NCBI GenBank assembly: GCA_029261965.1
Contig: JAJDAH010000365.1
Span: 1-39,773, forward strand
Direction: 5' to 3'
Source: Polyangiaceae bacterium
GTDB taxonomy: Bacteria > Myxococcota_A > Polyangia > Polyangiales > Polyangiaceae
Length of the DNA stretch: 39,773 nucleotides
In this document: positions 5,921-24,046 of the stretch, piece after piece
Layout: each line of letters starts with the position of its first letter
Position numbering within the stretch: the first letter of the stretch is position 1
Translations under genes and position numbers: made by a program
Notes under the pieces: generated by a model
Seen by the model: only the letters and a program-made list of their open reading frames with translations
Database searches by the model: none
What the model was told of the DNA's origin: nothing

Positions 5921-5959
5921 CAGCGACTTTTGTGGCATAAAGCGTTTTGGAGGGTGGGT

Positions 5960-9876: not shown

Positions 9877-10021
9877 GTTGCGCTCCAGGTGGCGGTGGGT
9901 TCTCGTCAAGGGGGGCACGATGCAGAGATAGAGCGTCCGAGAAAAATCACCGACCAGGGCGAAGCTACCCAAATCATGGAGTGTCGACGAGCTGCTCGAG
10001 CGGCTCAGGTTTCTCAGCAAA

Positions 10022-10048: not shown

Positions 10049-11512
10049 TCAGTGCCCGGTCACCCGCTCCATCGCGCCGTTGCGCACCTCGATTCGTGGA
10101 TAGGCGAGCGCAACCAGGAAAGCCGCTCCAGCCAGCACCGCGAGCACCTCGAACACCGTCGTCAGTCCGGAGCCGAGCGCTCGCGCGACCTCGGCGGCAC
10201 GCGCGGGTTCGAGCGCCGGACCTCCGCCGGCCAGGAGCTTTTCCGCGCGCGACGCGAGCTCGGGATCGGCCGCGAGGGCCGCGCGCAGCACTTCTCCCAA
10301 CACGCCCACCGAAAGGGCACCGCCTACCGTGCGCGTCATCAACATCGCACTCGTCGCGACGCCTCGCTGCTTCCACTCGACGCTGTTCTGCACCGAGATG
10401 AGCAAGCTCGTATTGGCGAAACCCATGCCCATCCCGAACGCCGCCATCGACACACGGAGCATCCACTGCTCGGGCACGCCGGTGCCGACCGCCAGGGCGA
10501 GGCCCACCATCGCGCTCGTGGCGACGAGCAAACCCACGCGCACTAACGGCCGAAAGCCGACCCGAGGAATCAGTCGCCCCGCCACGGCGCTCGACAGAGG
10601 CCACGCGATCGCCATCGGGGCAATCGCGCTCCCAGCTTCAGTCGGCGTACCGCCGAGAACCCCTTGCACGAACAAAGGCACGAACGTCAAAGAGCAGACC
10701 AACGCCCCGCCGACGAGCGCACCAATGACACACGCCACGGCGATCAAGCGATCTCGAAACAAATCGAACGGCATCATCGGATCCTCCGCGCGCCGTTCGA
10801 TACCCACCCACAGCGCAAACAAGACCAAGGCGACCGGAAACAAGAAGAACCGACCGCGCGCGGCGAGCAGCAACACGACGAGGCTCGCCGTGAGCGACAG
10901 CGCCCCCAGCACGTCCAAGGGTTTCTTCGAGCGCTCGACGTTCTCGTGGAGCACGGCGACGAGCAGCGCCGCCGAAACCAGGCCGAAGGGGACGCTCAAG
11001 TAGAACACCCAATGCCAGCTGAGCTCGGCCACGACGAGCCCGCCGACGAAGGGTCCCGCGATGCCGGCCACCGCCCAGACGCCGCCCATCACCCCCATCA
11101 TGCGTCCGCGCTCCTCGACATCGAAGATGTCGCCGACGATCGTCAACGACGTCGACTGCATCGTGCCGCCACCGAGCCCCTGCAGCCCACGAAACACGAT
11201 GAGCATGAGCATCGAGTCCGCCTGACCACACGAAGCCGAACCGACGACGAACAGACCGATACCGAGCAGCACGACGCTTTTGCGTCCGTACAGATCGCTC
11301 ACCTTCCCCGCGATGGGCATCGCCGTCGTGGCGGCGAGCATGTACGCGGCAAACACCCACGCGTAGAGATCCACGCCGCCCAGATCCCCGACGACGGTCG
11401 GCATTGCCGTCGATACGACCGTCACCTCCATCGCCGCCATGAAGATGGCGAGCATCAACGCGACGACGGTCAGGGGGCGATGAGTTCGGCGCATCGAAAT
11501 GCCGGCGCCCAT
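10049..11512 (-). CDS. 14-TM MFS multidrug exporter (DHA2, EmrB/QacA type)
   Basis: A 487-residue major facilitator with about 14 predicted membrane segments. Family motifs are visible: AMEVTVVSTAMPTVVGDLGG in TM1 (the DHA2 signature region), KVSDLYGRKSVVLLG (motif A loop), FRGLQGLGGGTM (motif B) and GVWAVAGIAGPFVGG with SWHWVFYLSVPFG (motif C and TM5-6 loop). Members export drugs, dyes or endogenous metabolites using the proton gradient. It follows the kinase-cNMP gene by 23 nt on the same strand, so co-transcription is likely; in that setting it may export the product of the neighbouring isoprenoid-type locus, which is inference. An ATG at 11494 is an alternative start. No strong Shine-Dalgarno is seen at either, consistent with translational coupling. 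Confidence 0.9.
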   Translation of the reverse strand: MGAGISMRRTHRPLTVVALMLAIFMAAMEVTVVSTAMPTVVGDLGGVDLYAWVFAAYMLAATTAMPIAGKVSDLYGRKSVVLLGIGLFVVGSASCGQADSMLMLIVFRGLQGLGGGTMQSTSLTIVGDIFDVEERGRMMGVMGGVWAVAGIAGPFVGGLVVAELSWHWVFYLSVPFGLVSAALLVAVLHENVERSKKPLDVLGALSLTASLVVLLLAARGRFFLFPVALVLFALWVGIERRAEDPMMPFDLFRDRLIAVACVIGALVGGALVCSLTFVPLFVQGVLGGTPTEAGSAIAPMAIAWPLSSAVAGRLIPRVGFRPLVRVGLLVATSAMVGLALAVGTGVPEQWMLRVSMAAFGMGMGFANTSLLISVQNSVEWKQRGVATSAMLMTRTVGGALSVGVLGEVLRAALAADPELASRAEKLLAGGGPALEPARAAEVARALGSGLTTVFEVLAVLAGAAFLVALAYPRIEVRNGAMERVTGH

Positions 11513-11535
11513 GCGCCGGGAGAAACGAGAGCTCG

Positions 11536-12870
11536 TCAGCCTCGAGTCATTCCCGACGCCCGCACGCGATTTTCGAGGTCACGGAAGCGCTGAGCCAACG
11601 CTCTCACCAACGTGCTCGCCCATCCATCGACACCGAGCCCCTCGGCCATCGTCTGCTTGTCGAGCACGAGCACGGTGACCTGATCGATCGCGCGCACCGT
11701 TGCGGCGCGCGGCTCTGCGAGCAAGAGCGCCATTTCTCCGAAAACGTCTCCGGCCTCCATCGTGCCGAGAGGCTCCTGGCCGCCGCCGTCGATTTTGCGC
11801 GACGCTTCGCAACGCCCATTCGCGATCATGTAGGCGGCGTCGCCGACGTCGCCCTCGCGAATGATGACGTCGCCGGGTTGAAACGTCTTCGTCGGAAGGT
11901 GCAAGCCGCCACGGAGGAAACCGTGCACGTCTTGCTGCAGCTCGACGACCGTTTGATAACGATCCTCGGGAGCCGGCGCCGTCGCGCGAGTCACGATCGA
12001 GACGAGTCGCTTCGAGATCGTGATACCCGTCGCCGCTTGTTCGATGGGGACGACTCGACCGTTTTTGGCGTTGTCCAAGAGTTCGTCCACGTCACGGAAC
12101 TTTCCGTACGGCGTTTTTCCAGAAATGATCTCGTAAAGCACCGCCCCGAGGCCGAACACGTCGCTGCGATCGTCCATCTCCGCCGGGTTTCCCCGCGCTT
12201 GCTCCGGAGCCATGTGCGTCGGAGTACCCACAGGTCCGTGCGCCTCCATCTGAGAACGAGAGCCGGACGCCGGACGCGTCTTGGTGAGCCGCGAGAGCCC
12301 CCAATCCATCAGGTACACCTGGCCGAAACCGGCGATCATCATGTTCTCGGGTTTGAGATCCCGATGGATGACCCCTCGATGGTGCGCGTAGGCCACCGCG
12401 TCGCAAATCTTGAGGAAGATCTCGAGCCCTTTTTCGAGTCGATCGGGAGAACCCGGCGCCCGGAACGGATCCCTCAGCCAGTCGTCGAAGCCCATCCCCT
12501 GGACGAGCTTCATCGTGAAGTACGGCACGCCATCGTCCGATATCGCCAGCTCGTGCACCGGCACGATGTTCGGGTGCTCGAGCTGCCCCGTCATTTGCGC
12601 CTCGGCGATGAAACCCTCGCGGTACATCGGGACCTTCGCCAGCTCTTTGTCGAGCCGTTTGAGGGCCATGTGCCGCAAGAGATTGCGGTCCGTCGCCGGG
12701 TGAATGCGACCCATCGCGCCGCGACCAAGCTCGGAATACACCTTCAGGTGCGCCGGCGTCGGGATGGCCTCCGCACGAATCGTCGCCGGATCGATCTCGT
12801 TGGCGCCGCCGATCGGAATGCCCTCGATGACGCGGACCGGATCCGCGTCCTGGTTCTCATCTTCACTCAC
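11536..12870 (-). CDS. Ser/Thr protein kinase with C-terminal cyclic-nucleotide-binding domain
   Basis: A 444-residue soluble Hanks-type kinase with start GTG (GAGGAG 7 nt upstream). Kinase domain about 43-320: glycine loop GRGAMG (49-54), ATP-anchoring Lys71 (ALKRL), catalytic HRDLKPEN (169-176, Asp171), metal-binding DWG (189-191, where most kinases have DFG) and APE (221-223). Residues 325-420 form a cNMP-binding domain with QPGDVIIREGD and the phosphate-cassette region GDVFGEMALLLAEPRAATVRA split over 374-394. The conserved GE-x(6-8)-R-A-A is intact, so cAMP or cGMP binding is plausible. There are no membrane segments. The order kinase-then-cNMP is the reverse of eukaryotic PKG. It lies between a helical/beta-domain protein gene upstream and the exporter downstream, and 8 kb from a class III cyclase that could make its ligand. 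Confidence 0.92.
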   Translation of the reverse strand: MSEDENQDADPVRVIEGIPIGGANEIDPATIRAEAIPTPAHLKVYSELGRGAMGRIHPATDRNLLRHMALKRLDKELAKVPMYREGFIAEAQMTGQLEHPNIVPVHELAISDDGVPYFTMKLVQGMGFDDWLRDPFRAPGSPDRLEKGLEIFLKICDAVAYAHHRGVIHRDLKPENMMIAGFGQVYLMDWGLSRLTKTRPASGSRSQMEAHGPVGTPTHMAPEQARGNPAEMDDRSDVFGLGAVLYEIISGKTPYGKFRDVDELLDNAKNGRVVPIEQAATGITISKRLVSIVTRATAPAPEDRYQTVVELQQDVHGFLRGGLHLPTKTFQPGDVIIREGDVGDAAYMIANGRCEASRKIDGGGQEPLGTMEAGDVFGEMALLLAEPRAATVRAIDQVTVLVLDKQTMAEGLGVDGWASTLVRALAQRFRDLENRVRASGMTRG

Positions 12871-12934
12871 GGAAAGCTCCTCGCCTACGGCGGCCAGAGC
12901 CTACCACCGGTACGCCGAGGTGTGCTTCGTGGCT

Positions 12935-13504
12935 TCAGTTGTGCTCCCAGAGCACGTGGAGAATCGCTAGCGGAACCTTCTCCACCCCGTCCTTCTCGAC
13001 ATAGATGACCCCGGAATACTGACCCGCCGGCGGCTTGCCCTTCATCTGCCCGACGTTGACGAGCTGAACGGTGAGAAACCGGAGATCTTCTTCGAACGCG
13101 AGCTGGATGTGGTCCGCCGGGAACCTTCCCGTCGTCGCGCCGTCTCTCGAGACACCCACGAGATCGGTCACCATCGGCTTCTTGTCGGCGCCAACCAGCT
13201 TCCAGACCGGAACCTTCGCGACCTCCCCCGCCGTATTCGGCGGAGCGACGATGACCGCCGTCGGGACTGCGGACTGCCCGCGCAACGGCCAGGTGAACGG
13301 AAACATCCAAAGTTCCATCGCCGACTGCGCGGTCAGCTCCCAGCAGTTGATGGAATCGCGCACGACGTGACCGACGCCGTAGTCGTTCGGACTACTTTTC
13401 ACCCCGTCGAGCAGGTCCTGATAGGCCTGTTGGTGCTCTCCGTAGACCCTCTGGTATTCGCCGAGCATGCCAGACCAGAGATCGAGCCAAGGAAACGTCC
13501 TCAT
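12935..13504 (-). CDS. Helical plus beta-domain protein A (unknown)
   Basis: A 189-residue protein, not recognised. The ATG at 13504 has GGAGG about 7 nt upstream. Residues 1-75 are amphipathic helix-like and rich in Trp/Tyr (WLDLWSGMLGEYQRVYGEHQ, DSINCWELTAQSAMELW), which recalls phasin-type helices. Residues about 85-189 look like an all-beta domain ending in LTVQLVNVGQ, then PAGQYSGVIYVEKDG, then VPLAILHVLWE. This ending parallels the C-terminus of the 276-residue protein at 18145-18975 (LTIRIRVPDG, PEGVYSGMILDP, PKGTVSLRV), so I infer the two are distant paralogues. There is no signal peptide or TM segment. The gene sits between the unknown 372-residue gene (43 nt) and the kinase (64 nt), probably in one operon. 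A structural or granule-surface role is speculation. Confidence 0.75.
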   Translation of the reverse strand: MRTFPWLDLWSGMLGEYQRVYGEHQQAYQDLLDGVKSSPNDYGVGHVVRDSINCWELTAQSAMELWMFPFTWPLRGQSAVPTAVIVAPPNTAGEVAKVPVWKLVGADKKPMVTDLVGVSRDGATTGRFPADHIQLAFEEDLRFLTVQLVNVGQMKGKPPAGQYSGVIYVEKDGVEKVPLAILHVLWEHN

Positions 13505-13547
13505 AACGAGCCTCCATTTCGTCCATCGTTGCGCATGAGAATCGATC

Positions 13548-14666
13548 TCACGGGTACTTCGCGCTCACACCCTTGACCACCATCAGGTCGAACCATTTCC
13601 CGAGGATCGCCGGTGCGAGGTAGTTGCTGCCCTGCCCCATCATGTCGAGAGCCGGTTCGTCGGCTCGGTTGGGGGCGCGATCGGAGTAACGCAGCGTTTT
13701 CGTCGAAATCACCCGCGTGAAGGCGAACTTTCCCGACTTGTCGCTGATCTCGGTTGCCAAGAGCCCACCCTGATCGATGTCGATCCCGCCACGCATCGCC
13801 TGGATGCCGACTCGGCTGTCGCGGCAGGCGTAGAGATCGAACGCGCAGTGGACCTGCTTCGTGGCTTCGTACTTTTTCGCCTCTTCGCTCGACAGCACTT
13901 GCTTGAAGGGCGGCTCGGTCGTCACCCCGAACTCCATGTTGAGGAAGTTCTCGTACGCCGCGATGGACCATCCGAGCCAGTTCACCTGGAGATGCTCGAA
14001 GAACACGCCCTTCCAGCCGGCTTCGGGGTTTCTACACACCTCACACTTCGGAGCGTTGAAATCGAACCGCCCCTCGCGGGTCGAGACCAGAAACGCTTCG
14101 GGCCAGAACGAATTGGCCGTGACCGACCACGTGCGCGGGTTGAGCACGGCCACGAAGTCCCGATCGAGCTTTCGCAATGTGTCCACCCTCGCCGCCACGG
14201 TCGTCGTCAGCTGCCACGGGTTGTAGTCGACCTCGAGTCGATGGGTCTCGGGGTTGATGGACGCGAGGTGCTCGTAGTCGTCGTGGTAGCCCGCAGCGAT
14301 CTCGGGCAGGCTCGCGATGATCTCCCTCAGGTGCGGATGTCGCTTGTGCAGCCCGCTGAGCTGCTCCGACGTTTCGCGACTGGGGCGACGGGCGAGAAGC
14401 CACGCGGCGAGTTCCGGCGAGGTCGCCGCATGTTCAATCGTCGCGTCGAGCCGCTTGGGCGCTTGCTCCACCACCGGAGGAAGGTGCCCATCGAACACGC
14501 CGGTCTCCATCCGAGCGGGCTCGAGCTCGCTGAGGTGGGTGGCAAGAAAGCCTTGGCGCGTGAGCGCCGCTCGGTCCTCGGCGTCCGTGCGCGCACCAGC
14601 GAATCGCCGTTGCCGCGGCGAGGACCCGCTCAGCGGGTTGAACACGCGTGGAGTTGGAAAAACCAA
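13548..14666 (-). CDS. Unrecognised 372-residue protein of the isoprenoid-type locus
   Basis: Not recognised. The frame opens at TTG 14666; no strong ribosome site is visible, so the true start may lie somewhat downstream. Residues 1-60 are charged and probably unstructured. Residues 60-180 contain helical stretches (ETSEQLSGLHKRHPHLREII, NPWQLTTTVAARVDTLRKLD). Residues 205-372 look like a mixed alpha/beta domain: KCEVCRNPEAGWKGVFFEHL (207-226, with Cys208 and Cys211 as a CxxC), SIAAYENFLNMEFG, then a beta-rich end. The W-x-G-V-x-F-E and helix arrangement resembles START/SRPBCC lipid-binding folds, but this is a weak impression. There is no signal peptide. It is the first gene of the leftward set, divergent from the reductase, with a 195-bp shared control region. 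Confidence 0.7.
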   Translation of the reverse strand: MVFPTPRVFNPLSGSSPRQRRFAGARTDAEDRAALTRQGFLATHLSELEPARMETGVFDGHLPPVVEQAPKRLDATIEHAATSPELAAWLLARRPSRETSEQLSGLHKRHPHLREIIASLPEIAAGYHDDYEHLASINPETHRLEVDYNPWQLTTTVAARVDTLRKLDRDFVAVLNPRTWSVTANSFWPEAFLVSTREGRFDFNAPKCEVCRNPEAGWKGVFFEHLQVNWLGWSIAAYENFLNMEFGVTTEPPFKQVLSSEEAKKYEATKQVHCAFDLYACRDSRVGIQAMRGGIDIDQGGLLATEISDKSGKFAFTRVISTKTLRYSDRAPNRADEPALDMMGQGSNYLAPAILGKWFDLMVVKGVSAKYP

Positions 14667-14692
14667 ACCGCGCTACCCGTTCTCGTTCTCAA

Positions 14693-14707
14693 TCCCCACT
14701 CTGGGGA
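14693..14707. promoter_or_regulatory. Inverted repeat in divergent control region
   Basis: TCCCC-ACTCT-GGGGA is a perfect 5-bp dyad with a 5-nt spacer, 27 bp upstream of the leftward start at 14666. It is one of at least three dyads packed into the 195-bp divergent gap. It could be an operator half or a 5'-leader hairpin. No known regulator motif is recognised. Confidence 0.35.
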
Positions 14708-14718
14708 CATCTAGCCAC

Positions 14719-14735
14719 GATGCCGGAGCGGCATC
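14719..14735. promoter_or_regulatory. Perfect 7-bp inverted repeat, operator-like
   Basis: GATGCCG-GAG-CGGCATC is a perfect dyad with a 3-nt spacer, close to the middle of the divergent gap. Its size and symmetry suit a dimeric repressor. It is the best candidate for a site controlling both arms. No regulator gene is adjacent. Confidence 0.45.
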
Positions 14736-14750
14736 AACGAGTAATCCCGA

Positions 14751-14762
14751 GCGGGATCCCGC
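14751..14762. promoter_or_regulatory. 12-bp perfect palindrome
   Basis: GCGGGATCCCGC is a gapless palindrome 16 bp to the right of the 14719-14735 dyad. A further GC-rich stem (CGGGC near 14779, GCCCG near 14792) follows. In GC-rich DNA such palindromes can arise by chance, but the clustering is noteworthy. Confidence 0.35.
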
Positions 14763-14861
14763 CTGTATTTGCGACCCCGCGGGCGTTCGAGAGCCCGCCG
14801 CGGGCGGCCGCAGTGTAAGGCGTGTTTTCGGCATCGGCGCTCGGTGATAGGGACGCAAGCG

Positions 14862-15917
14862 GTGTCGGGGCAAATTCTCATCTATGGGGCCAGCGGCTTC
14901 ACGGGGCGGCTCGTCGCCCAACGAGCCCGCGACTTGGGCTCGAGTCCCATCGTCGCCGGACGAAACGCCGCGACCGTGGTGCCGCTGGCAACCGAGCTGA
15001 AGCTCGACCACCGCGTGGCACCGCTGGATGACCCGTCGGCCATCGACGACATGCTCGCCGGCGTCAGCGTGCTCGTGAACACGGCGGGGCCGTTCCGTGA
15101 AACGGCGGTACCGCTCGCGGAAGCCTGCATCCGTTCCGGGTGTCACTATCTCGACGTCAGCGGGGAATACGACTCGATAGAGGCGGTCAGCCGTCGCCAC
15201 GGACTCGCTCTGCAGAAAGACGTCATGTTGATGCCCGCCGTCGGCTTCGACGTGGTCGCCACCGATTGCCTCGCCGCTCTAGTGGCGTCGGCGCGACCGG
15301 GCGCGCGTAGGCTCCATCTCGCGATCTCCGGCCTGACGTACGTGTCTCGGGGATCGGCACGTACGGCGATGAGCCACATTCTGCAGGCCTCGGTCGGAGT
15401 GCGCCGGGACGGCCAGATCCGGTTCATCCCCCCCGCATCGCTCGAGCGTGTATTCGACTTCGGAGCGGGCCCGTCCCCGTGCATCGCCGTGTCGTGGGGC
15501 GACGTCGCGACCGCTTACTTCACGACCGGCATTCCCGACACGACGGTCTTCTTCGAAGCCAACCCGCTCAACCGCTTCATGATGACGCACGCGCGGCTCT
15601 ATGGTCCCGCCCTGAACAACCCACTGTCACGCGCGTGGGCGGACGCCTTCACTCGACTGCTGCCCGAAGGTCCAACCGCGGAGCAGCAGGCCAACCATCG
15701 GATCACCGTCGTCGCCGAAGCCGAGAGCGACGGAGCTCCCTCGGCGCGCGCGCGCCTCAAAACGCCGGACGCGTACACCTTCACCGGCCATTCCAGCATC
15801 GCCGCGGCGCGGAGGGTGCTCGGCGGCGATCTGCAGCCGGGTTTTCAGACGCCCGCCCGCGTCTTCGGGTCGAACTTCGCGCTGCAACTCGCCGGAGTCG
15901 AGCGGGAGGCATGCTGA
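14862..15917 (+). CDS. Saccharopine-dehydrogenase-like NAD(P)-dependent reductase
   Basis: A 351-residue protein of the saccharopine dehydrogenase NADP-binding family. GTG at 14862 is chosen because AGGGA lies 8 nt upstream and the Rossmann strand begins at once: ILIYGASGFTGRLVAQRA with GASGFTG at 9-15. Further blocks are VLVNTAGPF, SGCHYLDVSGEYDSIEAV and MLMPAVGFDVVATDCLA. These are typical of the subgroup that includes mycobacterial trans-acting enoyl reductases and other lipid-linked reductases, rather than lysine-pathway enzymes. The expected role is NAD(P)H-dependent reduction of a lipid or polyketide-type substrate; the substrate here is unknown. It overlaps the next gene (TGATG), so both are co-translated. 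It is the first gene of the rightward set. Confidence 0.85.
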   Translation: MSGQILIYGASGFTGRLVAQRARDLGSSPIVAGRNAATVVPLATELKLDHRVAPLDDPSAIDDMLAGVSVLVNTAGPFRETAVPLAEACIRSGCHYLDVSGEYDSIEAVSRRHGLALQKDVMLMPAVGFDVVATDCLAALVASARPGARRLHLAISGLTYVSRGSARTAMSHILQASVGVRRDGQIRFIPPASLERVFDFGAGPSPCIAVSWGDVATAYFTTGIPDTTVFFEANPLNRFMMTHARLYGPALNNPLSRAWADAFTRLLPEGPTAEQQANHRITVVAEAESDGAPSARARLKTPDAYTFTGHSSIAAARRVLGGDLQPGFQTPARVFGSNFALQLAGVEREAC

Positions 15918-18106
15918 TGGCGAACGAATCGCGCGAGCGGCCAATCCGCGTGGCCATCGTGGGCGGCGGCTGCGCCGGAGTCACCGCTGCCTACGAGCTG
16001 ACTCGTCCGGAGCTCGAGGGGCGCTACGAAGTCACCGTCTATCAGCTCGGGTGGCGCCTAGGCGGCAAAGGCGCTTCAGGCCGCGGCCCAGCCGACCGCA
16101 TCGAGGAGCACGGGCTGCACCTCTGGATGGGTTGGTACGAGAACGCGTTCCGCGTGATGCGAGAATGCTACGAGGAGCTCGGTCGCGATCCTGCCACCTG
16201 CCCGATCGCCACCTGGACCGACGCGTTCAAACCCGATCCGTTCTGCGGCGTGATGGATCTGACTCCCGACGGTCGATGGGTCCCATGGACGGCGACCTAC
16301 CCTCTGACCGAAGGCATGCCGGGCGACCCGACCGGCCCGGACCAAAAGTGGACGATGCGCGACTACGTGGTCCGCGCACTGACGCTCGTCCGCGTGACGC
16401 TCGAGGCGGTCGAGCTCAAAGAAAACCCGGGAGATCGGGATAGAGTGGAGTGGGGCGCCGACGAACGCGGTCGACCCGGCTGGGTGAAGTCGCCCGAGGC
16501 CGCCCTGCAACGCTTGCTCCGCCTCGTGCGCGCCGGCGAGCTCGCCACCCTGACCACCCTCATCGAGGCCTTTGGGATCCTCGAAGCGGCGATGCGCTCG
16601 CTGCCGATCTTCTCGGAGAATCTCGTCCTGAAGATCCTCGAAGCCGTCTCCATCGCATCGTCGGAACAACTCGCGATGCGCGTCCGCACCGACGACGAGC
16701 TCCGACGGCTCTGGGAAGTCGTCGACATCACGATGGCGGCCGTGCGCGGGATCTTCCGCTTCGGGCTTCTGACGGATCCGCGGGGGTTCGACGCCATCGA
16801 CGAATACGATTGTCGCGAGTGGCTGCGCCTGAACGGCGCCAGCGACCGCTCGGTGGACGGCGCATTTTTGCGCGCCATGTACGACTTGGTTTTTGCCTAC
16901 GAGGACGGCGACGTGAACCGACCACGCATCGCCGCGGGCCAGGCGATGCGATGCGCCGTCCGAGCGTTTTTGACCTACCGGGGCGCCATCTTCTGGAAGA
17001 TGCAGGCGGGAATGGGCGACATCGTCTTCGCGCCGTTTTACGAGGCGCTGAAGCGTCGCGGGGTGCGATTCGAGTTCTTCCACAATCTCGAGAACGTGCA
17101 GGTCCGTGGGCTCGCCAGCTCCGCGGAAGGTGACCGCCCGTACGTGCACGCTCTCGAATTCGACGTTCAAGCCGCGCTCGAAAGCGGCGACGAGTACCAC
17201 CCGCTCGTCGACGTGCACGGCCTCCCTTCGTGGCCCGCCGAGCCCGACTGGAAACAGCTCGAGAACGGCGAGCAACTGCAGACTGCAGGCGTGGACTTCG
17301 AGTCCTTCTGGAACCCCACACGCTCCGCCACCAAAGTCCTCCACGTGCAGGAGGACTTCGACTTCGTCGTTCTCGCCGTCGGCCTCGGCGCCATCGAACA
17401 TGTCTGCAGCGAGATTGTCGCCCTCGACCCACGCTGGCAACGCATGGTCGATCACGTCAAGACGGTCCCGACGCAGGCCGCTCAAGTCTGGTTGGATTCG
17501 AGCATGAGAGATCTGGGGTGGGACGCGCCGTCAATCAACATGTGCGGCTTCGTCGAACCGTTCGATACGTGGGCGGACATGACGCACCTCATTCCCGCAG
17601 AGAGCTTCCCCAGGGAGCCGAAGTCGCTGGCGTATTTCTGCAGCGTGCTCCGAGAGCCGCCGACCGAGCAAGACCACGCCGACCCCGACTACCCGGCCCG
17701 CCGACACGCCGAGGTCAAACGAAACACCGTTCAGTTTCTGAATCGCGACGTGGGACACATGTGGCCAAAGGCCGTGCGGTCCGGCGGGTTTCGGTGGGAG
17801 CTGCTCGTCGACGAAAAAGGACGGGGCGGCGAGGGCAGCTGTGACGAATCGAGAATCGACACTCAGTTCTGGACGGCGAACGTGAACCCCACCGACCGCT
17901 ACGCGCTGTCGCTGCCTGGCACGACGCGCTATCGGATCTCACCGCTCGACGACGCGTTCGACAACCTGACAGTTTGCGGGGACTGGACGAGTTGCGGGTT
18001 CAACGCGGGGTGCGTAGAAGCCGCGGTGATTAGCGGCCGGCTGGCAGCCCACGCCATTTCGCTATCCCCGTCCCTCGAAGAAATCGTGGGATTTGATCAC
18101 CCCTGA
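15917..18106 (+). CDS. Large FAD-dependent oxidoreductase (phytoene-desaturase/amine-oxidase fold)
   Basis: A 729-residue flavoprotein. ATG 15917 overlaps the previous stop (TGATG) and has GGGAGG 7 nt upstream; ATG 15911 is too close to that site. The FAD dinucleotide fold opens with VAIVGGGCAGVTAAYELT (12-29), followed by YQLGWRLGGKGASGR (42-56) and IEEHGLHLWMGWYENAFRVM (62-81). The C-terminal FAD signature LTVCGDWTSCGFNAGCVEAA begins near residue 684 and leads into SGRLAAHAI. This is the layout of carotenoid desaturases, hydroxysqualene dehydroxylase and related isoprenoid oxidases, but the protein is about 200 residues longer, with helical insertions around 150-330. The adjacent prenyl synthase supports an isoprenoid substrate by context. 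No phytoene or squalene synthase is present in the window, so the substrate remains open. Confidence 0.88.
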   Translation: MANESRERPIRVAIVGGGCAGVTAAYELTRPELEGRYEVTVYQLGWRLGGKGASGRGPADRIEEHGLHLWMGWYENAFRVMRECYEELGRDPATCPIATWTDAFKPDPFCGVMDLTPDGRWVPWTATYPLTEGMPGDPTGPDQKWTMRDYVVRALTLVRVTLEAVELKENPGDRDRVEWGADERGRPGWVKSPEAALQRLLRLVRAGELATLTTLIEAFGILEAAMRSLPIFSENLVLKILEAVSIASSEQLAMRVRTDDELRRLWEVVDITMAAVRGIFRFGLLTDPRGFDAIDEYDCREWLRLNGASDRSVDGAFLRAMYDLVFAYEDGDVNRPRIAAGQAMRCAVRAFLTYRGAIFWKMQAGMGDIVFAPFYEALKRRGVRFEFFHNLENVQVRGLASSAEGDRPYVHALEFDVQAALESGDEYHPLVDVHGLPSWPAEPDWKQLENGEQLQTAGVDFESFWNPTRSATKVLHVQEDFDFVVLAVGLGAIEHVCSEIVALDPRWQRMVDHVKTVPTQAAQVWLDSSMRDLGWDAPSINMCGFVEPFDTWADMTHLIPAESFPREPKSLAYFCSVLREPPTEQDHADPDYPARRHAEVKRNTVQFLNRDVGHMWPKAVRSGGFRWELLVDEKGRGGEGSCDESRIDTQFWTANVNPTDRYALSLPGTTRYRISPLDDAFDNLTVCGDWTSCGFNAGCVEAAVISGRLAAHAISLSPSLEEIVGFDHP

Positions 18107-18144
18107 GCCCACAACACCGTAGATTACGACCCCGGGAGACACGG

Positions 18145-18975
18145 ATGAGCGACGACGGACGGATGAAACGACCGAAGCTCGAGCGACAAGAGCCCGTACG
18201 CGGGTTCACGGGTCTGTTCGGGGCACGACCGGGTCGCAACCCTTTTGCCTGGCCACCAAGCGCACCGCCCGGCGGCGCGGGGCCGGAAGGTCCCGTCGGT
18301 CGCGGCGTCAACCTCGGCTACCGCGTCATCGACGACTACATCAAGCAAGGCGAGCAGGCCGCCCGCGCGTTTCAGCAAGGTGGGTACCGTCCCGAGACCG
18401 TGACGGAGGACATGCAGGCCATGACGGAGAGAATGGTCGGATACGCCACCGACTTCGCGGCGCTTTGGGTCGAGATGTTCGGGCTCGCCGCCGCAAACGG
18501 GGCGTCTCGCGGGCAGAGCCCGGAGCAGCCGATCCCGCCGTTTCGCACGACCGCCGCTCGACCCGAAACCGGCGGGACCGCGCCGGATCCGGGGCCAACA
18601 CCCAATACGCGGCCAGCGACCGACACGCGGCCGGCGACCGACACGCGGCCAGCGGCGGCAGCGCACGCGCCTTCGCCTCAGGCGCGCGAGCACACACGAG
18701 TGGCCGTCCAGGTGAGCTCGGCGGGACGAACCGAGGTGACGCTCGATCTGCAGCCGGGCGCGCACGAAGGACTCGTCGTGCACGACCTGCGCGACGCGGC
18801 GGGCGACAAACCTCGCATCGAAGAGATCACGGTGGAGAACGGCCAGGCCGACGGCCGCCTCACGATTCGGATCCGCGTCCCGGACGGCCACCCCGAAGGG
18901 GTCTACAGCGGGATGATCCTCGATCCCTCGACGAACCTCCCCAAGGGCACGGTCTCTCTCCGCGTGGAGGGGTGA
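18145..18975 (+). CDS. Helical plus beta-domain protein B (unknown, phasin-like N-terminus)
   Basis: A 276-residue protein, not recognised. The ATG has GGGAG 6 nt upstream. Residues 1-55 are basic and Gly/Pro-rich. Residues 55-125 are amphipathic helix-like (YRVIDDYIKQGEQAARAFQQ, TEDMQAMTERMVGYATDFAA, ALWVEMFGL), similar in style to phasins or PhaE-type proteins. Residues 130-180 are a Pro/Thr/Ala linker with NTRPATDTRPATDTRP repeats. Residues 185-276 form a beta-sandwich-like domain (VAVQVSSAGRTEVTLDLQPG, RLTIRIRVPDG, PEGVYSGMILDP). The end resembles that of the 189-residue protein at 12935-13504 in the opposite arm. There is no signal peptide or TM segment. It sits between the FAD enzyme and the prenyl synthase (7-nt gap to the latter). 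It may be a scaffold or granule-surface protein, by inference only. Confidence 0.75.
   Translation: MSDDGRMKRPKLERQEPVRGFTGLFGARPGRNPFAWPPSAPPGGAGPEGPVGRGVNLGYRVIDDYIKQGEQAARAFQQGGYRPETVTEDMQAMTERMVGYATDFAALWVEMFGLAAANGASRGQSPEQPIPPFRTTAARPETGGTAPDPGPTPNTRPATDTRPATDTRPAAAAHAPSPQAREHTRVAVQVSSAGRTEVTLDLQPGAHEGLVVHDLRDAAGDKPRIEEITVENGQADGRLTIRIRVPDGHPEGVYSGMILDPSTNLPKGTVSLRVEG
18607..18653 (+). repeat. 18-nt tandem repeat (about 2.6 copies)
   Basis: Units at 18607-18624 and 18625-18642 (ACGCGGCCAGCGACCGAC, with one base change), plus a partial third copy, encode TRPATD in the linker of protein B. The period keeps the reading frame. Confidence 0.8.
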
Positions 18976-18982
18976 ACATGCC

Positions 18983-20017
18983 ATGAACGAGGCGCCCTCG
19001 GATCTCGTGCGAGAAATGCTCGACGAGTACGGCGCGCTCGTTCGACCCGATCTCGAGCGCTATCTGGCGAGAGGAGAGCCTCGCCGGTATCTCTACGACA
19101 TCGCCGCGGACTACCCGCTCCGCGGCGGGCGCATGTTGCGTCCGAGTCTTTGCATCGCGACGGCCCGCGCGCTCGGAGGCGACGCCGAAGACGCGGTCAA
19201 CACCGCCGTCGCGCTCGAGCTCATGCACAACGCTTTCCTGGTCCACGACGACGTGGAGGACGACGGCGAAGAGAGAAGGGGGCGCCCCACACTCAACGCC
19301 CTGCACGGCGTCGCCGTCGCCGTGAACGTCGGCGACGCCTTGGCCGTCATGAGCCTCCGGCCACTCATCGACAACCGGAAGCGGCTCGGGCCGAGACTCA
19401 CGCTGAGGGTCCTCGAAGAAACCGAGCTCATGGCTCGTGAGTCGGTGGAAGGTCAGGCCATCGAGCTCGGCTGGCGTCGAGACAACGCGGTGGATCTCGG
19501 CGAGGACGACTACCTCCGGATGATCCTCAAGAAGACGTGCTGGTACACGACGATCTACCCGAGCCGAGTCGGCGCCCTGATAGCCACTCGCGACGGCGCA
19601 GACCTCGAGAGAATGGTTCGGTTCGGCTTCTTCTTGGGGGCTGCGTTTCAAATAGAGGACGACATCCTCAATCTGGTCGGCGACAAGAAAAAGTACGGCA
19701 AGGAGATCGACGGCGACATCTGGGAAGGAAAACGCACGCTCATGCTCATTCACACGATGGGGCGCGCCAGCCGAGAAGAACGCGACCGACTGCGCGCGGC
19801 GCTGGCAGCCCCCCGCTCCGAGCGACGCGGCGACGACGTCGAATGGATTCGCGGCCTCATCGACCGAAACGAGAGTGTGCAGTACGCGCGCCAAGTCGCG
19901 CACGGGCTCGCCGGCGCGGCGCTGCACGAGTTCTCACTGGTGTTCGGCGATCTCCCGGAATCCCGCGACAAACGCTTCATCGAAGGGCTGACGACGTGGA
20001 TGCTGAACCGCGCGTGA
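18983..20017 (+). CDS. Polyprenyl diphosphate synthase, short-chain type
   Basis: A 344-residue trans-isoprenyl diphosphate synthase, which condenses IPP with allylic diphosphates. The first Asp-rich motif is DDVED (89-93), preceded by ELMHNAFLVH and followed by RRGRPTLN. The second is FQIEDDILNLVGD, with DDILN (226-230) in place of DDxxD, followed by KYGKEIDGDIWEGKRTLML. Substrate Arg/Lys positions are kept (LRGGRMLRP near 46-54, EGKR). Phe at position -4 from the first motif and no insertion inside it suggest a C15-C20 product; this is a rule-of-thumb inference. GGAGGGG lies 10 nt before the ATG. It is the last gene of the rightward set. Its stop is 3 nt from the stop of the convergent ADC-like gene. 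Confidence 0.92.
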   Translation: MNEAPSDLVREMLDEYGALVRPDLERYLARGEPRRYLYDIAADYPLRGGRMLRPSLCIATARALGGDAEDAVNTAVALELMHNAFLVHDDVEDDGEERRGRPTLNALHGVAVAVNVGDALAVMSLRPLIDNRKRLGPRLTLRVLEETELMARESVEGQAIELGWRRDNAVDLGEDDYLRMILKKTCWYTTIYPSRVGALIATRDGADLERMVRFGFFLGAAFQIEDDILNLVGDKKKYGKEIDGDIWEGKRTLMLIHTMGRASREERDRLRAALAAPRSERRGDDVEWIRGLIDRNESVQYARQVAHGLAGAALHEFSLVFGDLPESRDKRFIEGLTTWMLNRA

Positions 20018-20020
20018 CGC

Positions 20021-20788
20021 TCACCGAGCCGGCATCGGCCAGCTGATCCGCCAGAGCACCTCATCGAGCGCGAACCCACACCCGGGCACCGATCGGTAGA
20101 CGCCAGCCGACAGCGAATCGACGGAAGCGACGACCGTCATCGCCAGATCGAGCTCCTTCGTGATCGCGCGAGAGAAGTCCCAATCGAACCGGCACGCGGC
20201 GTAGTCGCCGCTCCGCTTGCGACCCACCACCGGCGCGCGAAAAGGCGCCATCACCCTCTCGAGTCCATCGGGCACGGCTTCTTTGCCGACTTCGAAACCG
20301 AACCGCACGAGCGCGGGCCCCTTCGGCTCCGACACCAGATACTCCGAGTCGACCCATCCGAGATCCGCGATCTGCTTTCCCAGACCGTAGTTCGCATTGC
20401 CGAACATCATCGGCCCGAGGTGATCACAGTACATTCTGAAAACGAATGTGAACGTCTCGTGGCCGCCCTTGAACCGAACGCGCGGCACCGCGGAACACGT
20501 CTCGTGATACCGGACTCCGAGACGAATCGGATACGTCCCGACGATGGCGGTGCTGTCGTCGAAATCGCCGAACGCGACGGCCAAAGGATGGCTCGCCTCA
20601 CCCTCTGGCGACGCGAGCTCGAGCTCCGCGGGTAGGATCTGCGCCGCCGCACCCCGCGGGAGATCGATGAGCCCCACGCATCCACGAAACGTCGCTTGCC
20701 CGAGGTACGCAACTCCACTCCCTGCCGCCGCACCACCCGACGCCGCACCGCTTGGTGCCGGCGAGCTTGGACCGGACGCGACGGGCAT
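20021..20788 (-). CDS. Acetoacetate-decarboxylase-like protein
   Basis: A 255-residue protein that resembles the acetoacetate decarboxylase superfamily. The first 25 residues are a Ser/Gly/Ala-rich lead. The core runs from about 45: ILPAELELASPEG (family LPxxL... region), HPLAVAFGDFDDSTAIVGTY, then FTFVFRMYCDHLGPMMFGNA and NYGLGKQIADLGW. By position Lys138 in GLGKQ matches the Schiff-base lysine region (GYPKK in classic enzymes), but the flanking sequence differs, so decarboxylase activity is not assured; the superfamily also has aldolase-dehydratases. The ATG lies 3 nt after the cyclase stop (TGA-GCG-ATG), which implies translational coupling with the nucleotide cyclase. It converges with the prenyl synthase. 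The assignment is moderately certain. Confidence 0.6.
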   Translation of the reverse strand: MPVASGPSSPAPSGAASGGAAAGSGVAYLGQATFRGCVGLIDLPRGAAAQILPAELELASPEGEASHPLAVAFGDFDDSTAIVGTYPIRLGVRYHETCSAVPRVRFKGGHETFTFVFRMYCDHLGPMMFGNANYGLGKQIADLGWVDSEYLVSEPKGPALVRFGFEVGKEAVPDGLERVMAPFRAPVVGRKRSGDYAACRFDWDFSRAITKELDLAMTVVASVDSLSAGVYRSVPGCGFALDEVLWRISWPMPAR

Positions 20789-20791
20789 CGC

Positions 20792-23700
20792 TCAGGCGCT
20801 CAGCCGAACGGCCAGATCGCGCACCTTCTGGGCTTCTGGAGCATCCACTTCAGCGCCGAGCGTCGCCGCGGCCCGAGCCAACACCGAAGCCGCATCGTCG
20901 CTCCGACCATTTTCGTGCAACAGGCTCGCGAGCGCGGCCGCCGCGCGCAGCTCGAACGTCGTCGCACGCTGAGCACGAGCTACGCTCATCGACTCGCGAA
21001 GTGACTCGACCGCCGGGTCGAGGTCGCCAAGCGCCGCAGAGATCTCCCCGCGCAGCCTGAGGATCTCTGCGCGATAATTCTGATCGAGCGTGCCTTCGAT
21101 ACCAGCAACGGCCTCGTCGATCGTCTGCTTCGCCTTTTTTGCGTCACCGTTCGCCATCTGCGCGTCGGCCAGATGCGACAGATAGTACGAGTACGGCAGG
21201 CGTGCCCCGGAGGCTCGATACATCATGAGCCCGGTCTCGATCTGCCCAATCCCCATGGCCGCGTCGCCCGCGTGCGCCGCCGCCCAACCGGCAACGCAGG
21301 TCGCGGTGGCGAGCCAGTACCCGAGCTCGTTCTCCATCGACAGGCTGATTTGCTCGGCGGCTAGCTCCGCTGCTCGCCCCACGTCGCCGGCGTCGTGCGC
21401 GATCGCCGAAGCGAAGCTCAAGACCATCGCCAGCGCGTTCGGGTCGTGCGTCCCCCGCGCCAGCTCCACCGCCTCGCGCGCCTCCTGCATCGCTCGCGAA
21501 GTCAGGCCCATGAACACGTGCGACCACGCCGTGTAGGCGTGCCCGTAGAGCAGCAGCTCGGTCGAACCGAAGATCTGCCGCGCCGGGCCGCGCAAGCTCG
21601 GATCGTAACGCTCGACGACACCGCTCATGAGGTCCAGACAGCGCTCGAGATCGCCCGTGAAGAACGCATGAGTTCCGAGCGCGCTGCGGGCTGCGATCTG
21701 CGAGACGGGGTCGGAGTAAGTCTCCAAGCTCCGGTTGAACTGATCGACGAACCAGCGCGCTCCGTCCCTGTCCCCGTGCACGAGCGTCACCGCCCAGAGC
21801 CCCGAAACGACGGGCAGCGGCGCCTCGTCGAGGCCCGCGGAGATCTCCAGCGCTCGCCCGAACATCTCCGCGACGTCGGGTGCGGCGAACCCCTGGGTCA
21901 CGACGAGCGCGGACCCGTACATCGTTCTCAGCAGGAGCTCCTGTTGAGTGCGGGCCGGCGAATCGGGCAGCTTCTCGAGCTGCTCGAGAGCGCACTCGAA
22001 GTGCGAGCTGGATTCTGCGTACGCGGTCGAGTCCGTCGCGCGCTTGCCCGCCATCATCCAGTAGCCGAATGACTCCTGACAGAGGCCGGCGCCGCCGAAG
22101 TGCTGCGCCAGAAGCTCCGGGCGAGCTTCGGCGATCTGCGGGAAGGACCGCTGCAAGGCTTCAGCGATCTGGCCATGCAGGCGTTGTTTGTCTCCCCTGA
22201 GCAGTGAGCCGTACGCCGCGTCTCGAACCAGCGCGTGACGAAACACCAGCGTCGAATCAGGACCGTCGTCGCGCCGCTCGAGCAGCGCCGCCGCTTCCAG
22301 CCGAAGAAGCTCCGCGTCGAGCGCATCGGGTTCGAGCGGAGCAACGGCTCGGAGCAGCTCGAGAGGGAACTCTCGACCGATCACCGCAGCAAGCTGCGCG
22401 ACCGGCTTTCCCGTGCCAGTTCGATCGAGGCGCGCAGTGAGTGAATCACGCACCGTGGCCGGGATGTCCGCGTCGCTCAGCTCGCGGCTTCGGCCGCCCT
22501 CGAGCGCGCCGGACTCGGCGAGCGTCCGCGTGAGCTCTTCCACAAAAAGCGGGATCCCCTCGGTGCGGCTCATGACCCGCCGCAGCACGTCGAGCGGGAG
22601 CACCCGAGCGCCGGCGATGTTCGAAATGATCGACTCCGCCTCTTGTTGACTCACCTTCCCGAGGGCGATCTCCGTCGGCCCGGACCACGGCGGCCGAAAC
22701 TCCGAGCGGCAAGTGAGCACCCCCATCAGACGCCCATCGCGTGGCGCGCTGGTCAGCTGACCGAGCATTTCCAACGTAGAAGGATCCGCCCAGTGCAGGT
22801 CTTCGACGATCCAGATGGTCGTCGTGCCGGGCGGAGCGAAGAGCAAGCCGAGCACCTCCATCGTCCGCTGTCGACGCTGCTTGGGCGTGAGGTGGAGCTC
22901 GTCGCCCTCCCCTACGCCGAGGAGTTCGGCGAGCAACGCAAAAGCGCCCTCGGGAAGATCCTCGTGCCGAGCAAGGAGGCGCTCGAGGGCCGCCCGCTTT
23001 TCCGCCGCCGGAGAATCGCGGGAGAACGCCAGGGTGCGCGCAAGCCAGTCGGCAAACGGGTGAAGCGGCGTGTTCTGGTAGAGCGGGAGACACCGAGCCT
23101 GCACCGTCGTCGGATCGCCGTCGATGGTGCCGAGGAACTCGGCGAGCAGTCGGCTCTTTCCGATGCCCGCGTCGCCCTTGAGCAACGCGACCTGCCGCTC
23201 CCCCTGTCGCGCTTTCTGCCACGCCGTCTTCATCGCGGCGAGCTCGCGTTCCCTGCCGACGAACGGGGTCAATCCCGGCGCAGCCTCCAACCGACTCTGA
23301 GCGTCCGTCTCGCGAAGGGCGCGATAGATCGGCACGCGGCGGCGGATCCCTTTCAGATCGTGCTCGCCCGTGCTCTCGAGCTCGAAGAACCCTCGGACTA
23401 GGCGGTGCGTGTCTCCGGAAAGCAGCACCGTATTGGGCTCGGCCATCGACTGCACGCGCGCCGCCACGTTGGGCCCCTCTCCCAGCGCGAGGTGCTCGGT
23501 GCGGTTACCCTCCCGGAGCTCTCCGACCACGGCGGTGCCCGTGTGAATGCCGACCCGCACGCGCACCTCTGCCTCGGGGATCTCCTCCTCGAGCGCGCCC
23601 ATCGCCTCCACGAGGGCGAGGCCTGCGCGAACGGCTCGCGGACCGTCATCTTCGTGGGCGGTCGGATAGCCGAAGTAGGCGAGGATCCCGTCACCGAGAT

Positions 23701-24046
23701 ACTGGGCGACGTAGCCATCGAACCGCTGGACGACCTCGCCGCAGATCGCGTGGTACCGCCACATGAGCTGGCGCAGGTCATCCAGATCGAGCTGCTCGCT
23801 GAGCGCGGTCGAGCCCATCAAGTCGCAAAACAAGATCGTCAGATGCCGCTTTTCCGCGGTGAGATGGCTGACCGGGCGGCGGACGCTCGGGGCGATCATC
23901 GGCGCCCCACACTCGGCGCAGAAGTTCGCCGTGTCCGGAGAAACGGCCCCACATTGAGCGCAAGGACTCTTCAGCGCCAATCCACACTCCGCGCAGGCCA
24001 ACGCCGTCGCGGTGTTCTTGGTGTGGCAAGCGGCGCAGTGACTCAT
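20792..24046 (-). CDS. Class III nucleotide cyclase with zinc ribbons, AAA ATPase and TPR region
   Basis: A 1084-residue signalling protein. GAGGGGA lies 6 nt before the ATG. Zinc-ribbon cysteines come first: CAACHTKNTATALACAECG (4-22) and CAQCGAVSPDTANFCAECG (29-47). The class III cyclase domain is at about 66-245, with metal Asp75 (LFCDLMGST), Asp119 (YLGDGILAYFGYP) and the transition-state pair Asn193/Arg197 (GPNVAARVQS), so it looks catalytically intact. The AAA/STAND-like ATPase follows: FVGRERELAAM (262-272), Walker A GDAGIGKS (291-298) and Walker B-like TTIWIVEDLHWADPS. The C-terminal half is TPR-like helical repeats. This architecture is common in actinobacteria and myxobacteria. It probably makes cAMP in response to an unknown cue. 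It lies upstream of, and translationally coupled to, the ADC-like gene. Confidence 0.93.
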   Translation of the reverse strand: MSHCAACHTKNTATALACAECGLALKSPCAQCGAVSPDTANFCAECGAPMIAPSVRRPVSHLTAEKRHLTILFCDLMGSTALSEQLDLDDLRQLMWRYHAICGEVVQRFDGYVAQYLGDGILAYFGYPTAHEDDGPRAVRAGLALVEAMGALEEEIPEAEVRVRVGIHTGTAVVGELREGNRTEHLALGEGPNVAARVQSMAEPNTVLLSGDTHRLVRGFFELESTGEHDLKGIRRRVPIYRALRETDAQSRLEAAPGLTPFVGRERELAAMKTAWQKARQGERQVALLKGDAGIGKSRLLAEFLGTIDGDPTTVQARCLPLYQNTPLHPFADWLARTLAFSRDSPAAEKRAALERLLARHEDLPEGAFALLAELLGVGEGDELHLTPKQRRQRTMEVLGLLFAPPGTTTIWIVEDLHWADPSTLEMLGQLTSAPRDGRLMGVLTCRSEFRPPWSGPTEIALGKVSQQEAESIISNIAGARVLPLDVLRRVMSRTEGIPLFVEELTRTLAESGALEGGRSRELSDADIPATVRDSLTARLDRTGTGKPVAQLAAVIGREFPLELLRAVAPLEPDALDAELLRLEAAALLERRDDGPDSTLVFRHALVRDAAYGSLLRGDKQRLHGQIAEALQRSFPQIAEARPELLAQHFGGAGLCQESFGYWMMAGKRATDSTAYAESSSHFECALEQLEKLPDSPARTQQELLLRTMYGSALVVTQGFAAPDVAEMFGRALEISAGLDEAPLPVVSGLWAVTLVHGDRDGARWFVDQFNRSLETYSDPVSQIAARSALGTHAFFTGDLERCLDLMSGVVERYDPSLRGPARQIFGSTELLLYGHAYTAWSHVFMGLTSRAMQEAREAVELARGTHDPNALAMVLSFASAIAHDAGDVGRAAELAAEQISLSMENELGYWLATATCVAGWAAAHAGDAAMGIGQIETGLMMYRASGARLPYSYYLSHLADAQMANGDAKKAKQTIDEAVAGIEGTLDQNYRAEILRLRGEISAALGDLDPAVESLRESMSVARAQRATTFELRAAAALASLLHENGRSDDAASVLARAAATLGAEVDAPEAQKVRDLAVRLSA

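Follow-up and report, generated by a model that had tools for sequence, protein, structure and literature searches.

Ten genes of the locus

Ten genes lie between positions 10,049 and 24,046 of the window, by which is meant the whole stretch of DNA analysed (39,773 nucleotides, from a Polyangiaceae bacterium):

10049..11512, minus strand: MFS exporter of the DHA2 type (Pfam MFS_1, 180.9 bits); accessory, not conserved
11536..12870, minus strand: Ser/Thr kinase with a C-terminal cyclic-nucleotide-binding (cNMP-binding) domain (Pfam/NCBIfam)
12935..13504, minus strand: HB1, 189 aa, paired with U372 (no Pfam/NCBIfam match)
13548..14666, minus strand: U372, with a predicted START/Bet v 1-like (SRPBCC) domain at about residues 142-369 (AF2 model, Foldseek, VIA-align)
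14862..15917 (start approximate), plus strand: SDH, saccharopine-dehydrogenase-like NAD(P) reductase (PF03435, 42.6 bits)
15911..18106 (start may be 15917), plus strand: FAD, large flavoprotein of the phytoene-desaturase/HpnE superfamily (PF13450); core
18145..18975, plus strand: HB2, basic N-terminal motif, helical hairpin and beta domain (AF2 model); core marker
18983..20017, plus strand: IPPS, polyprenyl diphosphate synthase (polyprenyl synthetase, 191.9 bits, both Asp-rich motifs); core
20021..20788, minus strand: ADC-like single-domain protein (PF06314, 29.7 bits, cut-off 29.8)
20792..24046, minus strand: CYC, zinc ribbon, class III cyclase, AAA_16 ATPase and TPR (Pfam/NCBIfam; TIGR03903, 525 bits)

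All ten open reading frames (ORFs) showed coding-type codon-position GC which, together with the Pfam and NCBIfam assignments, agreed with the genes as placed in a first-pass annotation of this DNA. Along the minus-strand arm, from the MFS gene to U372, the gaps were 23, 64 and 43 nt; the divergent gap between U372 and SDH was about 195 nt, a value that depends on the starts. SDH and FAD overlap in a TGATG at 15915-15919, FAD is separated from HB2 by 38 nt and HB2 from IPPS by 7 nt, and gaps of 3 nt lie between the convergent IPPS and ADC genes and between ADC and CYC. The tight packing described earlier, with its TGATG overlap and gaps of 3, 7, 23 and 43 nt, was reproduced.

Scanning of 30 window ORFs showed no squalene or phytoene synthase, terpene cyclase, PKS or NRPS domain, as had been reported; one squalene/phytoene synthase (SQS/PSY) gene (PF00494) was found elsewhere in the genome, on another contig (C316). 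The exporter counted in the annotation is present and of the DHA2 type (220 bits with the EmrB-like model TIGR00711, cut-off 230), but it is not a conserved member of the locus, the only MFS match among the listed loci L063-L142 being in L065 (78 bits).

Conservation of FAD, HB2 and IPPS across phyla

Genomes were scanned with the FAD alignment alone, a query blind to neighbouring genes, and the best 80 of 557 relatives were kept; the partner genes were thus not built into the result. Within its own genome FAD was the sole match at E ≤ 0.001. A FastTree phylogeny of 109 FAD rows from the loci listed contained a clade of 63 rows (local support 98), into which every one of the 54 rows with both HB2 and IPPS fell, and the HB2-plus-IPPS label required 6 changes on the tree compared to 36.7 when shuffled. 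Long branches flagged in this tree meet outside the clade. The tree omits the FAD fragment of L123 (433 aa) and other FAD ORFs below 450 aa, though L123 was kept in the neighbour counts; L068, a record identical to L036, was excluded from the counts. Some rows are kin: L042 and L139 are one locus, and L086/L115 and L064/L066 are near copies.

Among the loci listed, HB2 was found near FAD in 56 of 64 clade loci, IPPS in 60 and an SDH-like reductase in 31, and none of the three was found near any of the 47 FAD relatives outside the clade. ADC-like proteins, single- or two-domain, were present in 45 of the 64. No match was obtained for ADC in 19 of the 64 or for the reductase in 21, at some of which the contig ends, and 22 had no cyclase or kinase match, part of them at contig ends. 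When only loci flanked on each side by 8 kb of sequence were considered (n = 31), IPPS was found in 31, HB2 in 27, a reductase in 27, ADC in 23 and a cyclase or kinase in 26. IPPS followed HB2 directly downstream on the same strand in 41 of the 54 listed loci with room for it; the outer neighbours varied from locus to locus. The neighbour thresholds were set by us and missed the Pfam-detected kinase domains of L065 and L118 and the 639-aa ADC of L122. The gap medians (0 and 1 nt) are biased towards overlap because the ORFs were called mechanically.

Co-variation with FAD was seen for IPPS (rho 0.59, 49 loci), HB2 (rho 0.62, 54 loci), SDH (rho 0.79, 26 loci) and the two-domain ADC (rho 0.49, 27 loci), with 0 of 500 permutations as high in each case. 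For the cyclase, co-variation with FAD was weak, 23 of the 500 permutations reaching as high a value, so the cyclase is not considered as fixed a member as the enzymes. These results show that FAD, HB2 and IPPS stay together as a fixed set from phylum to phylum. Their usual companions are an ADC-like protein, a large AAA/TPR protein with a cyclase or kinase, and an NAD(P) reductase that is either SDH-like or of an alternative, epimerase type. The annotation had named scattered homologues as the outcome that would count against its locus; what was found is that the core genes co-occur and the locus is conserved. That the genes are merely chance neighbours in a gene-dense genome is scarcely credible. 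Large myxobacterial-type genomes are rich in kinases and transporters, and in the loci listed neither the MFS gene, nor the cNMP-binding kinase outside L063 and L053, was found as a neighbour; for FAD, HB2 and IPPS, however, chance is refuted by the clade, order, co-variation and co-occurrence counts, and identical gene order is seen in several phyla.

By their names, the listed carriers belong to Myxococcota, Pseudomonadota, Acidobacteriota, Gemmatimonadota, Planctomycetota, Binatota and Actinomycetota, and include Archangium, Minicystis rosea, Methylotetracoccus oryzae, Rhodopila globiformis, Sulfitobacter and Erythrobacter. Myxococcota and Actinomycetota, first suggested as the range, are thus among the carriers, but the spread reaches far beyond them. 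Within the phylum Myxococcota, an HB2 match was found in at least 13 of 377 genomes, 3 of the 13 being weak (E 9e-5 to 5e-4), in a survey that scored 7 first-look candidates per genome in the rows listed. HB2 was single and located at the module in six of eight genomes; G404 has two copies, both at the module, and G406 only a weak match.

Partner and signalling proteins

The AF2 model of HB2 has helices at residues 50-122, where a helical hairpin is predicted (alignment of 38), and strands at 185-274. HB2, considered as a possible phasin or granule protein, had no Pfam or NCBIfam match; its structure gave no Foldseek match under E 0.001 and VIA Z values of at most 4.5, and the beta domain was without a significant match. 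Because no structural match was significant, no fold name is given to it. In L063, L064 and L069, U372 is followed by a small HB1-like gene in the same orientation. HB1 and HB2 had been described as two related helical/beta proteins, a claim that is weakly supported: profile-profile comparison of HB2 with four HB1-like proteins gave 94.7% over 40 C-terminal columns, but only 8.4% with the HB1 of the window alone, and BLAST between the two gave nothing meaningful.

Relatives of U372 were found in 7 of the 64 clade loci and 0 of the 47 outside (loci listed), mostly in Myxococcota, three of them weak (22.6-45.9 bits). Among 59 near genomes they occurred in the window's own genome only, and none was found on plasmids. 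A mycobacterial 475-aa neighbour was considered as an ADC or U372 and gave no profile match to either. The AF2 model of U372, built from seven rows with a mean pLDDT of 57.5, matched PYL2 best by Foldseek (E 4.9e-5) and reached a VIA-align Z of 12.2 over about 150 residues; for residues 142-369 or so, a START/Bet v 1-like fold is predicted. The fold would be common to PYL receptors, STARD proteins, aromatase/cyclases and BmCBP, from all of which U372 differs in its low identity (3-13%), a long N-terminal half beyond the domain and the absence of a Pfam match.

IPPS passed PF00348 as a full-length short-chain isoprenyl diphosphate synthase (191.9 bits, cut-off 27) with both Asp-rich motifs at their places, and its best NCBIfam match was IdsA_Meth (199 of 468 bits). 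The module enzymes carry Ala at position -5 in 46 of 51 cases and form a subfamily of their own, apart from own-genome paralogues: the IPPS of the window is 45-69% identical to 49 module IPPS elsewhere and 31-37% identical to three paralogues in its own genome. The ADC-like protein scored just below the PF06314 cut-off. At the place of the Lys-bearing motif of the acetoacetate decarboxylase superfamily it has GLGKQIA, whose Lys may correspond to the Schiff-base lysine of the G-x-P-K motif. It belongs to another subfamily (profile match 32%) than the large version of most loci, which has two tandem ADC-like domains. The first of these keeps G-R-x-x-x-G-[WF]-P-K in 13 of 17 proteins by pattern, and its GWPK/GFPK Lys is invariant in 12 aligned; the second lacks the motif by pattern and is followed by a long C-terminal extension. 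A search of the window's own genome, run without a positive control, found no two-domain ADC elsewhere.

CYC has D75, D119, N193 and R197, which we take to be the metal aspartates and the Asn/Arg pair of a class III cyclase. All four residues are kept in 23 of 35 assessable cyclases, and 12 differ at one or more (36 aligned rows, less one fragment that lacks these positions; profile from 14 rows passing a text pattern). Four of the five most degenerate cyclases have a kinase domain. CYC is the only full-length cyclase of its type in the window's genome (E ≤ 1e-20); in G000, G401 and G405 the single full-length copy is at the module, as are both copies in G402. The module copy was the best match in seven of eight genomes, the exception being G404. 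Proximity means little in Archangium G403 and in G400, because these have many cyclase matches (39 and 10, respectively). The cNMP-binding kinase has the motifs HRDLKPEN at 169, DWG at 189 and GEMALLLAEPRAAT at 378; at the chosen threshold it was found in 3 of the 111 listed loci, and similar kinases adjoin U372 in L063 and occur close to FAD in L053. The control by cyclic nucleotides proposed at first is only partly supported: the catalytic residues are intact in CYC and most other cyclases, but the departures in the remaining 12, the weak co-variation with FAD, the rarity of the cNMP-binding kinase and the clade loci lacking a cyclase or kinase match speak against it as a general feature of the loci. 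The conserved signalling feature is a sensor with an exchangeable output.

Known systems and a proposed function

FAD shares with the HpnE/phytoene desaturase superfamily the N-terminal FAD-binding motif and two matched stretches. Its best NCBIfam match was HpnE (TIGR03467), with 63 bits against a cut-off of 283.05 and a length of 731 aa here, and no hopanoid or carotenoid partners were found. The superfamily membership, the possibility that IPPS could feed GGPP and the SQS/PSY gene on C316 would suit a fragment of a carotenoid- or hopanoid-type pathway beside unrelated regulators. This reading is very improbable given the low HpnE score and the absence of SQS/PSY and terpene cyclase from the locus and from the clusters common to at least 3 of 62 listed loci. 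A carotenoid or squalene-hopene cluster was rejected, with no squalene or phytoene synthase in the 30 window ORFs scanned, in line with the annotation.

The TOMM kinase/cyclase fusion (TIGR03903) has the cyclase-AAA-TPR architecture in common with the module, including kinase-plus-degenerate-cyclase forms in four loci; CYC of the window, however, scored 525.5 bits compared to 705.75 and no kinase domain was found in it, and the window ORFs scanned contained no TOMM peptide-modifying genes. Family 2 encapsulins with polyprenyl transferase cargo (NF041163, NF041169) likewise combine a polyprenyl synthase with cNMP-binding domains. IPPS reached 176 of 450 bits with the cargo model, and an encapsulin cargo was rejected: of 24 shell matches in the window's own genome none exceeded the 400-bit cut-off, the best (46 bits) lying over the model's cNMP part. 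Archangium G403 has two encapsulin shell genes, at a distance of about 3.7 Mb from its module. Because each multi-gene system compared failed a defining feature, and with no published description found in the part of the literature that is openly accessible, the locus is probably a new, undescribed kind of system. A familiar lipid as product, if found, would lower this claim.

Chances are about even that the conserved loci encode a signalling-gated biosynthetic module in which a polyprenyl chain is built and modified. IPPS would supply a linear polyprenyl diphosphate of at least C20, whose oxidation level the FAD enzyme would alter; the ADC-like enzyme, with its family's lysine motif, would make or break a C-C bond, and the reductase would complete the product. 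HB2 may hold or carry hydrophobic intermediates, as may HB1 and the START-like U372 in seven loci. The AAA/TPR protein would perceive the stimulus; here CYC would produce a cyclic nucleotide that may be sensed by the neighbouring cNMP-binding kinase.

Among the listed relatives outside the clade, 27 of 47 have an ADC-like partner beside FAD and neither IPPS nor HB2; five FAD-ADC fusions were found at the chosen threshold, and in Azospirillum an outer-membrane transport protein is flanked by two FAD genes and an ADC gene. Since FAD is so paired, the chemistry need not be isoprenoid: FAD and ADC could be the core chemistry of a fatty acyl or polyketide-like lipid to which IPPS adds a prenyl group or anchor. 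We regard this as unlikely, though the strongest of the alternatives, since IPPS is present in nearly all clade loci and co-varies with FAD, and no acyl carrier, ketosynthase or acyl-CoA enzyme occurred in the clusters common to at least 3 of 62 listed loci.

A kinase or cyclase match was also found near FAD in 39 of the 47 outside relatives (loci listed), TIR-TPR and SLATT-like genes adjoin Erythrobacteraceae and sphingomonad loci, and presence in the Myxococcota is patchy. A stress or conflict response, with the AAA/TPR protein as a STAND-type sensor and FAD, ADC and IPPS making a toxic or signalling lipid on demand, would account for these observations, but appears improbable. The clusters behind the TIR and SLATT neighbours comprise four loci each. 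PADLOC returned only generic kinase and cyclase domains and two 17-bit FAD-motif matches, with no match to HB1, HB2, ADC or U372, and a scan of the ten proteins for Pycsar gave cyclase-domain matches of up to 63.7 bits and no effector, so that both catalogued defence and Pycsar were set aside.

To return to the polyprenyl module, its scans found a prenyl synthase and none of the usual prenyl-consuming enzymes, and FAD, HB2, IPPS, ADC, the reductase and the AAA/TPR sensor form a testable gene set for the product. A bolder and more tentative proposal, which we hold with less than even confidence, is that the product is a new polyprenyl-derived lipid in at least seven phyla, made by a locus that probably spread horizontally. 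A STAND-type sensor would switch this locus, and the sensor's output domain (an active cyclase, or a kinase plus a dead cyclase) would have been replaced repeatedly against a constant set of enzymes; the wider FAD-ADC family, cyanobacteria included, would then represent a general pattern of sensor-gated lipid chemistry. The module would link the cyclase- or kinase-AAA-TPR proteins, a large and poorly understood bacterial class, to a specific metabolic target.

Conservation of the FAD gene neighbourhood

The ten genes that the first-pass annotation had placed in 10049-24046 were all found, with families and spacing matching the description. The window spans one contig of 39.8 kb in full, from a draft genome of 9.6 Mb. 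Its phylum is Myxococcota, since the contig in the same-phylum genome G168 also appears as a metagenome bin classified in Myxococcota (L068). Flanking genes encode a TonB-type receptor and a sulfotransferase on one side and an alkyl sulfatase and an aldo/keto reductase on the other; clustering of neighbours over positions 1-32000 placed none of them in a recurrent cluster. Other features of the window are:

4974-5966, bacterial protein with four Cys_rich_FGFR repeats
7585-10020, single ORF in which a TonB_C domain precedes a TonB-dependent-receptor plug
24129-26030, alkyl sulfatase-type metallo-beta-lactamase protein adjoining the cyclase gene, outside the recurrent clusters
36177-38003, AurF-like di-iron oxygenase beside a TetR regulator
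Whole window, 70 TGATG against 49.7 expected (0/100 shuffles as high)

The large flavoprotein (FAD) was matched in 54 of 188 genomes of the phylum, 26 of them at E < 1e-30 and the remainder by short matches. It was also matched in 11 plasmid records, and all four inspected had an ADC-like (acetoacetate-decarboxylase-like) neighbour, a cyclase neighbour or both. A species-genome collection was scanned with a 10-row FAD alignment, and the best 80 of 557 loci, ranked by likeness to the window FAD, were taken; partner genes were looked for after the FAD scan, by clustering and HMMs. Carriers among the matches listed, several of them metagenome bins, belong to Myxococcota, Pseudomonadota (alpha, beta and gamma), Acidobacteriota, Gemmatimonadota, Planctomycetota and Binatota, with more distant ones in Actinomycetota.

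The neighbourhood search that had been proposed showed that two FAD partners, the small helix/beta protein HB2 and the polyprenyl diphosphate synthase IPPS, are conserved across phyla and, among the loci listed, confined to one FAD clade. In the FAD tree (109 rows) this clade comprises 63 rows with a local support of 98: 54 with HB2 and IPPS, five with IPPS only, one with HB2 only and three with neither, two of which (L094 and L112) stop at contig ends.

Neighbours of FAD among the loci listed (clade loci; loci outside the clade)
HB2: 56/64; 0/47
IPPS: 60/64; 0/47
Saccharopine-dehydrogenase-like (SDH-type) reductase: 31/64; 0/47
Epimerase-type reductase: 13/64; 3/47
Any ADC: 45/64; 27/47
Cyclase domain: 34/64; 13/47
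Kinase: 13/64; 15/47
U372, the 372-residue protein (three relatives are weak matches): 7/64; 0/47

Of the 54 clade loci whose sequence continues for 2.2 kb downstream, 41 have FAD, HB2 and IPPS in this order on the same strand. A full set of HB2, IPPS, ADC, reductase and cyclase or kinase occurs in 14 of the 31 loci with 8 kb on either side; in the remaining 17 one or more of the five is missing (ADC in eight, a signalling gene in five, a reductase in four), part of these being threshold misses. The presence of the module is patchy, also in the home phylum, where 13 of the 377 genomes gave an HB2 match, a weak one in three cases.

Comparison of identity matrices showed that FAD correlates with IPPS (rho 0.59), HB2 (0.62), SDH (0.79) and the two-domain ADC (0.49), with 0/500 permutations as high in each case, and with the cyclase at 0.22 (23/500 as high). 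These correlations support but do not prove co-evolution, because the permutations leave shared organism history in. The window IPPS shares 45-69% identity with 49 module IPPS elsewhere but 31-37% with the three other polyprenyl synthases of its own genome, as co-inheritance of the module predicts.

Signalling proteins

The cyclase protein of the window joins a class III cyclase to AAA and TPR regions. Several carriers have few full-length proteins of this type: the window's genome, G401 and G405 have one copy each and G402 has two, all at the module; a second match in the window's genome covers the cyclase domain only. The probability that random placement would put the three single copies within 44 kb of the module, as observed, is about 6e-7. 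Matches are numerous in G400 (10), G404 (6), G168 (8) and the Archangium genome G403 (39), and proximity to the module is therefore weak evidence there. In every one of these genomes except G404, the best match is nevertheless the copy at the module.

The four catalytic residues are intact in 23 of 35 assessable clade cyclases, including the window copy, and three or all four are altered in L064, L066, L081, L082 and L096. All of these except L082 have a kinase match in the same ORF, and 300-360 residues precede the cyclase region. These degenerate cyclases argue that the conserved signalling feature is a predicted AAA/TPR sensor carrying cyclase or kinase output. The left-arm cNMP-binding kinase has the canonical motifs of a kinase and of a phosphate-binding cassette; such a kinase was found in 3 of the 111 listed loci at the threshold used, and its counterpart in L063 lies beside U372.

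Related loci were seen elsewhere. In mycobacteria (L125, L130, L134 and L135) one comprises IPPS and an HB2-like gene, a 475-aa protein, a cyclase, FAD and SDH, adjoining an EccB gene in L130. A Qingshengfaniella plasmid (L032, 11986-18700) encodes a FAD-ADC fusion, then a cyclase protein and lastly a regulator of the Crp/Fnr type; this is a compact relative, and the regulator is its own likely cyclic-nucleotide reader. In cyanobacteria (L118, L120, L124 and L129) FAD lies with an ADC-like match and a 1,830-1,870-aa protein, which in L118 is a kinase-AAA-GAF-histidine kinase.

Accessory proteins and possible products

U372 adjoins SDH divergently in six loci and lies beyond the cyclase in L063; a small HB1-like gene follows it in L063, L064 and L069. 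Its C-terminal half was modelled with modest confidence as strand-strand-helix-helix-strands-long helix, a predicted layout resembling START/Bet v 1 proteins such as PYL receptors, STARD proteins, bacterial aromatase/cyclases and a carotenoid-binding protein. By alignment and predicted structure, HB2 consists of a helical hairpin and a beta domain behind a basic N-terminal motif, and structure comparison returned no named relative. The mycobacterial HB2-like gene, which matches the HB2 profile at 94% over 81 columns, lies directly upstream of IPPS.

The first-pass view that the locus matches no standard carotenoid or hopanoid cluster held on the features tested, on which HpnE, TOMM, encapsulin 2B and Pycsar membership were each rejected as well. 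A full-text search of open-access literature found no paper describing the gene set. One rival explanation is a non-isoprenoid lipid given prenyl addition; another is a defence or stress lipid made on demand. In some sphingomonad/Erythrobacteraceae loci the module has a TIR-TPR protein and a weak DUF4231/SLATT match as neighbours (L107, 17254-19215, and L110, 7741-9762; each cluster covers four loci). Conflict systems often contain domains of these types.

Of the mechanism, what is directly observed is that the gene set exists, is conserved and encodes catalytic motifs. A large ADC-like protein, frequently split or cut by contig ends, occurs in 36 of 62 clustered loci. The 17 exceeding 1,000 aa contain two homologous ADC-like domains (profile match between them at 100% probability) and a C-terminal extension, with a G-x-P-K motif in domain 1 of 13 by pattern, whereas the window ADC is single-domain and of another subfamily. 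Five loci have FAD-ADC fusions at the threshold used, suggesting a common reaction path for both.
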